DNA of 64,000 nucleotides from Gillisia sp. CAL575. Lineage in GTDB: Bacteria > Bacteroidota > Bacteroidia > Flavobacteriales > Flavobacteriaceae. Location: the NCBI RefSeq assembly GCF_000403785.1, contig NZ_APHJ01000019.1, positions 62,001 through 126,000 on the forward strand, in the 5' to 3' direction. Below, piece after piece: positions 13,678-55,219 of the stretch; position 1 is the stretch's first letter; each line of letters opens with the position of its first letter. The position numbers and the translations under genes are program-made. A model generated the notes under the pieces. The model was not told the DNA's origin, ran no database searches, and was given only the letters and a program-made list of their open reading frames with translations.

Positions 13678-13711
13678 TTTGTGCGTATCAAGTTTTCTGC
13701 CCAAGGGGCAG

Positions 13712-14156
13712 GTTTCAAGTTTCAAGTTTTAAACTTTACACCTTGAAAATCTTTTTTATTTAAATAGGATATGAAACTTGCAATTTTTCTGCTTAAACTT
13801 TCATAACCGCTCTTTAATTCTATGAACTTTTCTTCTTTAATATATTCCGAATCATATAATCTATATAATTGGGATCGGACTTCACCCGCAGAGCCTTTTG
13901 CTATAGATAGAAATTGTCTAAACTCCAAGTTTCCATCTCTTTCAAAACCTTCAGCAATATTATCCATTACAGAACCTGATGCTCCTTTTATTTGATCTCT
14001 TAATTTAAAATCTAATTTTAAATCGGTTGTTTTGGAAATTATAATTATCTCCTTTGCTAAATCACGTGCTGCATTCCAAATCTTCAAAATTTTTAATGGT
14101 AGCCATAATTTCAAAAATTTATGTTGATTTAAACCTTAAACCTTAAACCTTAAACC
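13712..14156 (-). mobile_element. Candidate S23 element 1 (heptamer arrays around the S23 gene)
   Basis: On the plus strand, TTAAACC is repeated four times at 14129-14156, just 5' of the S23 gene. GTTTCAA, GTTTCAA, GTTTTAA follow one another at 13712-13732, at its 3' end. In coding orientation these are GGTTTAA x4 and TTAAAAC-TTGAAAC-TTGAAAC. The two arrays are approximate inverted repeats of each other (about 6 of 7 pairs per heptamer if G-U is allowed). Mobility is inferred from recurrence at other operon spacers in this window, not shown. Confidence 0.4.
13722..14106 (-). pseudogene. S23-type four-helix-bundle protein, frameshifted near its start
   Basis: The main frame encodes a protein of the 23S rRNA intervening-sequence (S23, four helix bundle) family: D-Q-I-K-G-A-S-G-S-V, N-I-A-E-G-F-E-R and Q-F-L-S-I-A-K-G-S-A-G-E-V are the family core. 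The expected N-terminus M-A-T-I-K-N-F-E-D-L-E starts at ATG 14106 but in another frame. The two frames meet at 14071-14085, where one copy of an 8-nt repeat (ATTTGGAA on the coding strand) seems lost; restoring it gives F-E-D-L-E-I-W-N-A-A-R in one frame. Only TTG starts remain in the main frame. Inserted between sufC and sufD. Function of the family is unknown. Confidence 0.7.
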
Positions 14157-14176
14157 TTAAAAATGGCGAAACTCCT

Positions 14177-14929: not shown

Positions 14930-14969
14930 GTGTTTATTATATTTTTCCGAAAAAAATCGGATAAATTAT

Positions 14970-16798: not shown

Positions 16799-16810
16799 AA
16801 TTTTTTTCTA

Positions 16811-17247
16811 GTTTTAAGGTTAAAAAGTTTAAAAGTTAAAATGTAGATTTTAGGTATTTAATTAATCCACTTATCAGTTTTGAAACTTCACTAACTTTTA
16901 AATTTAACCTTTCAAATTCGTCGTTTGATACATATTTTAAATCAGTAGCAAGATATAATTGGGAACGAAATTCTCCTGAGGAGGCTTTTGCTATATATAA
17001 AAAACGTATAAATTCTTTCGTTGTTTCCCGTTCAAACCCTTCTGCAATATTAGATGTTATTGAAATACTTGCCCTCCTAATTTGATCCCTTAATCCATAA
17101 TCTTTGGAAAAATCTCCGTGACCAGTAATCAAATAAAGTTCGGAATTTAATTCCCTTGCCTTTTGCCAGGCAATGATCTCTTCAAAGGAATTGAATTTTG
17201 CCATCCAAACTTTACAAACTTTAAAACATTTAAACTTTAATACTTTA
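16811..17247 (-). mobile_element. Candidate S23 element 2 (octamer arrays around the S23 gene)
   Basis: On the plus strand 16811-16850 reads as five octamers (GTTTTAAG, GTTAAAAA, GTTTAAAA, GTTAAAAT, GTAGATTT). The other flank, 17207-17247, reads as AAACTTTA (plus one C), AAACTTTA, AAACATTT, AAACTTTA, ATACTTTA. The period is 8 on both sides, and the arrays match in inverted orientation. Element boundaries are approximate. The AT-rich composition makes chance matches easier, so confidence is moderate. Confidence 0.4.
16836..17204 (-). CDS. S23-type four-helix-bundle protein (intact copy)
   Basis: The 122-residue protein is all-helical, with the family core Y-G-L-R-D-Q-I-R-R-A-S-I-S-I, N-I-A-E-G-F-E-R, E-F-I-R-F-L-Y-I-A-K-A-S-S-G-E-F-R-S-Q-L-Y near residues 38-85. 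The N-terminal F-N-S-F-E-E-I-I-A-W-Q-K-A-R matches the family start. This is the only copy of three in the window with an undisturbed frame. It lies in the sufB-sufA spacer in the operon's own direction. The family was named from open frames inside 23S rRNA intervening sequences; no biochemical role is established to my knowledge. Confidence 0.85.
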   Translation of the reverse strand: MAKFNSFEEIIAWQKARELNSELYLITGHGDFSKDYGLRDQIRRASISITSNIAEGFERETTKEFIRFLYIAKASSGEFRSQLYLATDLKYVSNDEFERLNLKVSEVSKLISGLIKYLKSTF

Positions 17248-27324: not shown

Positions 27325-27327
27325 GTA

Positions 27328-27765
27328 TTAAAAATTAATGGTTAATAGTTAGTGGGAAATTGAAATGGATAAGATAAAATCTTTTGAAGATCTCAATTGT
27401 TGGAAAACGGGAAGAGAATTAAGACAAGAGATTTCAACTTTAATTTTACAATTTCCAAGCTATGAAAAATTTGAATTAGTTTCTCAAATGAGAAGAGCTT
27501 CAAGATCTGTTACGCATAATAATGCTGAAGGGTATGGGAGATTTCATTATAAAGAGAACGCACAGTTTTGCAGAATTCTAGAGGGTCCTTATATGAGTTG
27601 TCAGATCAATTAATAACGGCACTAGACGAAGGTTATATAGAAGAAGAGTATTACAAAAAATTGAAGATAAAGGTTGTTGAATGTATTGCAATTTTGAATG
27701 AGTATATAAAGTATTTAATAAATGCAAATCAAACCAATAACATTTAACTTTTAATCAATTAACAT
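27328..27765 (+). mobile_element. Candidate S23 element 3 (heptamer arrays around the S23 gene)
   Basis: 5' array: TTAAAAA, TTAATGG, TTAATAG, TTAGTGG at 27328-27355. 3' array: ATAACAT, TTAACTT, TTAATCA (plus one A), TTAACAT at 27737-27765. The period is 7 on both sides. The 3' array read in reverse complement gives TTAATTGA, TTAAAAG, TTAAATG, like the 5' array. It lies entirely within the sdhA-sdhB spacer. Confidence 0.4.
27365..27747 (+). pseudogene. S23-type four-helix-bundle protein, frameshifted
   Basis: The first 70 or so codons (M-D-K-I-K-S-F-E-D-L-N-C-W-K, S-Q-M-R-R-A-S-R-S-V, N-A-E-G-Y-G-R-F) match the S23 family. The frame then runs into a stop at 27611-27613. A single missing base near 27576-27579 explains this: adding one T in G-C-A-G-A-A-T-T-C-T restores F-C-R-I-S-R-G-S-L-Y-E-L-S-D-Q-L and an open frame to the stop at 27745-27747. 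The rest of that frame is normal family sequence. Inserted between sdhA and sdhB in the operon's direction. Confidence 0.8.
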
Positions 27766-50480: not shown

Positions 50481-51995
<1,515 letters not shown>

Positions 51996-51998
51996 ACT

Positions 51999-52075
51999 AG
52001 TATTTAGATTTGAGATATTAGATTTGAGAGATCATTTTTCTAATTACTTAATACTAACTACTCAATACTAAAAAA
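51999..52075. repeat. Heptad-periodic inverted array filling the atpD-atpC spacer
   Basis: The spacer reads as eleven consecutive 7-mers: AGTATTT, AGATTTG, AGATATT, AGATTTG, AGAGATC (51999-52033), a 7-nt centre (52034-52040), then TAATTAC, TTAATAC, TAACTAC, TCAATAC, TAAAAAA (52041-52075). The reverse complement of the second half gives AGTATTG, AGTAGTT, AGTATTA, AGTAATT, like the first half. This is the array-array structure of the three S23 elements but without a gene. Confidence 0.6.
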
Positions 52076-52076
52076 T

Positions 52077-52364
52077 ATGTATTTAGAAATAGTTACTCCG
52101 GAAGCAGTTGTATTTGGTGCAGAAGTAGTATCGGTGAGAGTTCCCGGAATTGATGGCGAATTTCAGATGTTAAATCATCATGCTGCAATTGTTTCACTTT
52201 TAGTAGAAGGGGAAGTAAAGATAGATTTAGTATCGGCAAGTCCAGAAATGCTAAAAAGTCTTCCTTCAGCTTTCAGGAAAGAAGCTAACAATGTACTATT
52301 CTACCCAATTAAAGGTGGTGTGCTTGAAATGAAAGATAATAAAGCGATCGTATTGGCTGATTAA
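52077..52364 (+). CDS. atpC: F1Fo ATP synthase epsilon subunit (short form)
   Basis: The 95-residue protein matches the N-terminal beta-sandwich of epsilon (I-V-T-P-E-A near residue 5, G-I-D-G-E-F near 25, L-N-H-H-A-A near 33). The C-terminal helical hairpin, which in other bacteria inhibits ATP hydrolysis, is absent. This short form is usual in Bacteroidota and so not a local truncation. A terminator lies 20 nt downstream. Confidence 0.92.
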   Translation: MYLEIVTPEAVVFGAEVVSVRVPGIDGEFQMLNHHAAIVSLLVEGEVKIDLVSASPEMLKSLPSAFRKEANNVLFYPIKGGVLEMKDNKAIVLAD

Positions 52365-55078: not shown

Positions 55079-55108
55079 CAAACCTACTAATTAATTATTG
55101 ATAAACAA
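55079..55108 (-). promoter_or_regulatory. Promoter of the DUF2975-XRE pair
   Basis: On the minus strand TTG (55106-55108), a 19-nt spacer and TAGGTTTG (55079-55086) match the Bacteroidota consensus. The -7 element lies 26 nt before the start. The spacer region contains an inverted repeat (ATTATTG...CAATAAT, 55095-55112) that could be an operator for the XRE regulator. Confidence 0.6.
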
Positions 55109-55219
55109 TAATTAATTTTTTAATTTCAGGAGCATAGGGTTTATATTTATAGATTTAATTCTGTATAATGCTTTGTATTTTATATGGAACTAGTGTTCTT
55201 ATTCCTCAATAATAACTAT

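Follow-up and report, generated by a model that had tools for sequence, protein, structure and literature searches.

Heptad repeats beside a gene for the S23 protein have been described in the intervening sequence (IVS) of Coxiella 23S rRNA, where, according to the available part of that report (PMC4990558), GACAGAT heptads stand ahead of the S23 start, the number of repeats differs among strains and the first of them coincides with an RNase III site. Heptads have also been reported between genes. MacGregor (2015, PMC4679880, available in part) described TAACTGA heptads that precede start codons in Beggiatoaceae, Cyanobacteria and five Bacteroidetes, as well as other heptamers in Gramella spacers, with 0 occurrences of the term S23 in the available text, and the accessible part of Rehm (2015, PMC4692102) reports G-rich heptamer repeats in Xanthomonas and Nostoc. 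Among the literature matches listed, none dealt with a link between S23 and heptads outside rRNA and none with an array in the atpD-atpC spacer, most subscription journals being beyond reach. Structures have been solved for two S23 relatives (2GSC and 2RLD). Here we describe the atpD-atpC spacer of Gillisia sp. CAL575, which lies in a stretch of 64,000 nucleotides (the window) and has the following layout:

50484..51995, + strand: atpD (F1 beta subunit), the upstream gene (Pfam PF00006, PF22919, PF02874)
51996..52076, + strand: atpD-atpC spacer of 81 nt, the heptad array (lag-7 identity 45/74, 0 of 20,000 shuffles)
51999..52033, + strand: left arm of five AGATTTG-type 7-mers, from the sequence (within-arm lag-7 identity 0.64)
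52034..52040, + strand: 7-nt centre ATTTTTC, from the sequence
52041..52075, + strand: right arm of five TNAATAC-type 7-mers, from the sequence (within-arm lag-7 identity 0.68)
52063..52076, + strand: 14 nt preceding the atpC start, predicted to stay unpaired
52077..52364, + strand: atpC (epsilon subunit), the downstream gene (Pfam PF02823)

The left arm consists of AGTATTT, AGATTTG, AGATATT, AGATTTG and AGAGATC and the right arm of TAATTAC, TTAATAC, TAACTAC, TCAATAC and TAAAAAA, the fifth unit of each being degenerate, and a single nucleotide separates the last unit from the atpC ATG at 52077. Identity was 45/74 at lag 7, 42/67 at lag 14 and 30/60 at lag 21, with the remaining lags at 0.25-0.38, and no dinucleotide shuffle out of 20,000 matched the lag-7 value. 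The arms are complementary at 75% across 24 nt, and the + strand RNA is predicted to fold at -14.3 kcal/mol (z -2.63; 2 of 200 shuffles equal or better) into helices of 3-6 bp with mostly two-base internal loops between them, in a rhythm of about 7; the - strand gives -13.6 kcal/mol (z -2.21). Given this complementarity and fold score, the inverted character is real, though modest in the single sequence. The preliminary description of this DNA, which read the spacer as two sets of five 7-mers around a 7-nt centre, with approximately inverse complementary halves reaching almost to the atpC start, and which suggested the periodicity statistics and the folding reported here, is thus borne out in its architecture. 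The spacer has the complementary ends closing a loop that characterize S23-bearing IVSs, as well as the inverted heptad arms between co-directional genes that characterize S23 elements in operons. Rfam 15 gave 0 matches above the gathering score in the 64-kb window, and the closest named relatives of AtpC are from Gillisia.

For comparison across the Flavobacteriales we assembled 95 loci, namely those of 15 Gillisia genomes (CAL575 included) and the best 80 of 333 GTDB loci, and a second set of 60 loci chosen manually to span genera and families among the listed matches of an evenly spread sample of the order, in which 286 of 296 genomes matched; since some species occur in both sets, the 155 loci represent 139 distinct spacers. 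S23 was found in none of the 155 loci (95 + 60), and all of these spacers, at 3-117 nt, are too short to hold it. As 21 of the 139 distinct spacers measure less than 40 nt, the array is dispensable and can be absent. Among the 118 of at least 40 nt, 93 reached a lag-7 score of 8, a score attained by 14 of 2,360 shuffled spacers, by 0-3 of the 118 at the other lags from 4 to 13 and by 78 at lag 14, and pooled lag-7 identity over 65 spacers was 0.526 vs 0.294 (z 35). The letters are far from uniform: 48 different heptads are dominant, a rotation of TAACTGA (AACTGAT) dominates in 1 of the 118, and the C-bearing arm comes first in the AATTCCA type and the G-bearing arm in most others, as judged by eye.

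The idea that heptads are common to operon spacers at large was rejected, since a lag-7 score of 8 was reached by just one of 123 co-directional control spacers 40-130 nt in length (45 from the G009 sample, 65 from the G005 sample and 13 from the window). In the 400 kb samples of these two genomes, lag-7 counts at that score were 10 (G009) and 3 (G005) vs 2-12 at other lags, without clear excess. Heptad arrays were seen at a few further places: a gene-less one of mixed types (CAAGGTT and CTCAATA) stands directly 5' of a start codon in G009 (L171:418-515), with a similar one in the CAL575 genome (L011, G000:C21:66469-66508), and TAGTTAG units lie right at a gene's stop codon in L012 (G000:C20:179731-179762), where a second arm was not seen.

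Most of the longer spacers are predicted to form a hairpin, with z < -2 in 59 of 65 distinct spacers of at least 55 nt (mean z -4.2), and the non-heptad atpD-atpC spacers L048 and L127 are hairpins as well (z -4.9 and -5.5). Among 55 heptad spacers, the median length left unpaired in the predicted fold is 2 nt behind the atpD stop and 14 nt ahead of the ATG, and the stretch ahead of the ATG measures 12-18 nt in 37. Control co-directional spacers have mean z scores of -0.5 (G009, 45 spacers), -1.6 (G005, 65) and -1.2 (window, 14 including atpD-atpC) and median unpaired ends of 8-11.5 nt, so that the hairpin near the start is unique in strength only and not in kind. The arms of one spacer suit each other better than the mean of swapped arms in 52 of 55 cases (0 of 20,000 permutations as good), while the own arm was the best among all partners in 4 of 55. 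Within type A arrays (31 rows, three of which, L050, L095 and L101, belong to the AATTCCA kind) this advantage is nearly gone, with own arms above the swap mean in 17 of 31 (p 0.018). Of the 26 consensus pairs in five closely related Gillisia, 7 are disrupted and 2 have a compensatory change; strict base-pair covariation was found in neither of these two comparisons. Form and the likeness of the arms are kept, and individual base pairs are not.

The same window holds three S23 genes with heptads beside them, two of them in an operon which we take to be suf, its genes being read from similarity and partly from Pfam:

13722..14114, - strand: S23 gene between sufC and a sufD-like gene (PF05635, E 1.9e-31)
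13709..13744, - strand: heptad arm 3' of that S23 gene, overlapping the gene end (lag-7 score 14.3)
14129..14161, - strand: heptad arm 5' of that S23 gene (lag-7 score 21.0; TRF, 4.7 copies of TTAAACC)
16836..17204, - strand: S23 gene between a sufA-like gene and sufB (PF05635, E 2.6e-36)
16805..16858, - strand: heptad arm 3' of the sufA-like/sufB S23 gene (lag-7 score 10.7)
17207..17247, - strand: degenerate repeat 5' of the sufA-like/sufB S23 gene (TRF period 8, 5 copies, 81%), under the lag-7 threshold
27327..27365, + strand: heptad arm 5' of a broken S23 copy (lag-7 score 9.2)
27386..27699, + strand: broken S23 copy, split over two frames (PF05635 in two pieces)

Non-coding lag-7 segments scoring above 9 in the window occur only at these S23 genes and in the atpD-atpC spacer, and a further non-coding segment at 55085-55126 scores 8.6. 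The broken copy is flanked by + strand ORFs of 667 and 247 aa, with its weak heptad arm ahead. The spacer before sufC (14930-14969 in the window, and also L160-L170) contains a short non-heptad hairpin, whose letters vary between species and whose two sides seem, by eye, to change together. PF05635 matches nine pieces at eight places in the CAL575 draft genome (five without an inner stop, two with one stop and one broken) and is present in 15 of 16 Gillisia genomes, with 0 to 11 matches each.

Heptad flanks are not peculiar to this window. We compared the 65 best-scoring S23 loci (not a random draw), 35 from Gillisia and 30 from seven other genera, the broken locus (L008/L009) being excluded from the flank, swap, tree and orientation analyses. 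Lag-7 identity was 0.416 (5') and 0.385 (3') in the Gillisia flanks and 0.387 and 0.397 in those of the other genera, compared with 0.28 inside the S23 gene bodies. The arms of one element matched each other better than the mean of swapped arms in 25 of 35 Gillisia and 28 of 30 other loci (0 of 20,000 permutations as good), and the own arm was top among all partners in 5 of 35 and 6 of 30, respectively. The S23 gene is co-directional with both neighbours in 62 of the 65 loci and opposed to both in three. The heptad plan is not universal, as some flanks score nothing at lag 7. Individual elements also depart from it, with arms that look direct rather than inverted (L143 and L151) or with flanks of period ~8 instead of 7 and the C-bearing arm first (L148). 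With heptad flanks at S23 loci of eight genera, the kinship of the atpD-atpC array with S23 elements is real, and the spacer can indeed be described as S23-type flanks without a gene.

A recurrent S23 site lies ahead of a gene that is presumably fadA (thiolase-like), occupied in 25 of these best-scoring loci from six genera. Three heptad types (T, G and A) could be labelled on 24 of the 25, seven labels being set by hand, and on the S23 protein tree heptad type needs 2 changes, which is the minimum, vs 10.4 in shuffles. The T group of seven rows spans Gillisia, Salegentibacter, Christiangramia, Salinimicrobium and Mesonia with support 100/100, the G group has support 90/97 and type A needs 2 changes. 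S23 proteins of the same heptad type share a mean identity of 0.69 between genera (75 pairs), and those of different types 0.52 within a genus (40 pairs). From the congruence of tree and heptad type, the gene with its arms is the unit that is inherited or transferred, and replacement at the fad site has happened more than once.

Sites from which S23 is missing look different from the atpD-atpC spacer. The 12 Gillisia sufC-sufD loci comprise six spacers of 0-34 nt, three S23 elements (one broken), one spacer of 64 nt without an array and two longer inserts with heptads, of which that of L162 (243 nt) retains the 3' end of an S23 element (alignment score 111 vs 69 for the best of 200 shuffles). 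The insert of L170 (158 nt) was rejected as an S23 remnant, as its score of 69 compares with a shuffle best of 70 and only the heptads are shared. S23 is present at sufA-sufB in 7 of 12 loci. Taken over the suf-operon sites without S23 or with a shrunken element, 10 of 12 spacers measure 0-67 nt and the others 247 and 286 nt, and none of the 12 reaches a lag-7 score of 8. The fad site carries S23 in 10 of 15 loci (L304 and L315 were not parsed); S23 is absent and apparently a single arm is left in L302 and L309 (genomes G014 and G005), and neither S23 nor arm is present in L312 (G015). None of these suf and fad loss sites resembles the two matched arms of atpD-atpC.

The letters of the atpD-atpC array turn over freely: at least 35 changes of array type are required on a tree of atpD with 86 rows, the labels being noisy (47 of 420 letter-shuffled spacers were also labelled). 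The window and L038 differ in array type with flanking genes 95.5% and 94.4% identical, the window and L039 share their type with flanking genes 94.0% and 93.7% identical, and L071 has a 10-nt spacer vs a 77-nt array in L073 with flanking genes 92.0% and 94.7% identical. L038 and L073, from two genera, have near-identical right arms. The CAL575 genome contains no close dispersed copies of the array (the best other match is 27 nt at 93%), and its draft gave 0 matches to the reverse transcriptase family RVT_1 and 0 to Y1_Tnp (PF01797, RAYT); with no resident mover found there, exchange by recombination is the simpler guess. In the G009 genome, 16 RVT_1 matches of nearly equal score were seen, nine of them at 3.39-3.47 Mb.

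On this evidence we tentatively favour, as a real possibility, that the spacer is a stand-alone, gene-less heptad hairpin that acts in the mRNA and is built like the arms which enclose S23 genes. By analogy with gene-less IVSs it would most likely be an intercistronic mRNA hairpin. Once transcribed, the arms might pair and project from the atpD-atpC mRNA in the manner of an IVS without a gene, as a predicted stem reaching from ~2 nt past the atpD stop to ~14 nt ahead of the atpC start. Such a stem may be a target for an RNase that acts on double strands, a part played by RNase III in rRNA, and either the cut or the stable stem itself could separate atpC from atpD and leave a short, unstructured, A-rich atpC leader, so that the synthesis or turnover of epsilon might differ in level from that of beta. 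ATP synthase needs three beta subunits per epsilon subunit, and the products of atpD and atpC are therefore required in unequal amounts. If mainly the build matters, we propose, the letters would be free for exchange to another array type, which may occur by recombination or insertion and be followed by homogenisation through slippage. We infer each of these steps, from action in the mRNA and cleavage to the effect on stoichiometry and the mode of type exchange.

The preliminary description spoke of an S23 element with no gene and left three options, an empty site before insertion, a remnant after gene loss and a minimal non-coding version. The kinship of the arms in that label stands; S23 was seen in 0 of the 155 loci, and neither an empty site nor a remnant is supported. 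An empty site fits poorly with the mostly short, non-array spacers of the S23-less suf sites. That an ancestral S23 element lost its gene is improbable in our view: the architecture is common to both and S23 loss does occur (L162, and the fad site in G014, G005 and G015), but S23 has not been met at atpD-atpC in the 155 loci, the arms have stayed periodic and matched through dozens of type changes, and the known losses, with L162 as the sole proven remnant, left lop-sided pieces or nothing. Of the outcome that the preliminary description named as a refutation, unrelated and non-periodic spacers in related genomes with no S23 gene in atpDC, half came true: the gene was seen in none of the loci, but the spacers are periodic. 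Considering the absence of S23 from all loci, the prevalence of arrays, their turnover and the lop-sided losses together, the array is a standing gene-less version, neither an empty site nor an obvious remnant, and the minimal non-coding version survives, widespread at atpD-atpC.

The main challenge to a hairpin with a role in the mRNA is a self-sustaining mutational product without function, in which slippage copies the 7-nt units and template switching across the hairpin makes the arms alike, tolerated by the operon because it sits between a stop and a start. Free turnover of letters, with its at least 35 noisily labelled type changes, pairing at the level of type rather than base and the 21 short spacers are what such a process would leave; however, a mutational process is not expected to prefer a single spacer throughout an order, arrays are all but absent (1 of 123) from the co-directional control spacers, the 400 kb samples have no clear lag-7 excess and non-heptad atpD-atpC spacers also form hairpins, and we therefore hold this account to be fairly unlikely. 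We consider it quite unlikely that the array is a small non-autonomous mobile relative of S23 elements, inserted repeatedly at a hotspot and perhaps aided by S23 protein. A whole-array swap between the sisters L037 and L038, presence in L073 and absence in L071, the right arms shared between L038 and L073 and the type-wise replacement of S23 elements at the fad site are in keeping with mobility, yet close dispersed copies and RVT_1 or Y1 transposase matches are missing from the CAL575 genome, and S23 number shows no tie to the atpDC array over 47 searched genomes and Gillisia: seven Christiangramia with 10-nt atpDC spacers have 1 to 12 S23 matches, and the L075 genome has no S23 match and keeps a weak array. 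The G005 genome, also with no S23 match, has an atpDC spacer (L048) that is non-heptad yet a strong hairpin. Least probable of all is a binding site for a translational regulator (S1, Csp or CsrA-like) by the start codon, a role that the accessible text of PMC4679880 suggests for TAACTGA repeats. The array does end 1 nt from the atpC start, but a reader that recognises sequence is hard to reconcile with 48 dominant heptads in the one spacer, and the repeats occupy both arms, not just the start-proximal one.

A bolder extension of the gene-less hairpin, which we regard as rather doubtful when taken as a whole, is that Flavobacteriales possess a family of heptad hairpins in their operon spacers, with or without S23, in which the S23 lineages would be mobile, each with its own heptad, moving as a unit and replacing others across genera as at the fad site, and in which the gene-less form would be permanently seated at atpD-atpC, an active process rewriting its two arms together. 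If so, the long-unexplained S23 protein would gain a role, serving as partner of an mRNA intervening sequence that is mobile or renews itself. Intergenic heptad repeats and the S23 protein of unknown function are tied to one another, and one spacer in a core operon retains its repeat architecture throughout an order, with letters that have been exchanged dozens of times. The atpD-atpC array could thus allow selection on form to be separated from selection on sequence by direct experiment.

Several known systems share part of this build. REP and REPIN sequences are short palindromic elements in operon spacers, as is the atpD-atpC array, but the CAL575 genome has neither dispersed near-copies of it nor a Y1 transposase match. 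The G-rich heptamers of Xanthomonas and Nostoc, in the available part of PMC4692102, are likewise intergenic 7-nt repeats of variable copy number, but they are of G-quadruplex type with one unit and do not form inverted pairs at one set place in an operon. The TAACTGA repeats (PMC4679880, as far as available) resemble the array in being intergenic 7-nt units that end a few bases ahead of start codons; they are direct arrays, whereas the atpD-atpC array is an inverted pair with units of TNAATAC and AGATTTG type instead of TAACTGA. Complementary ends bound the atpD-atpC array as they do the S23p-encoding rRNA IVS, in which, according to the accessible text of PMC4990558, short heptads stand beside the S23 start and a form with S23 protein is described. 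Unlike that IVS, the array lies in an mRNA spacer and not in 23S rRNA, has no S23 gene, and uses 7-nt units that form both arms and vary by species, with cleavage being putative. With the S23 operon elements of the Flavobacteriaceae it shares inverted heptad arms placed right after a stop and before a start between co-directional genes, those elements enclosing a gene of ~120 codons where the atpD-atpC array has a 7-nt centre.
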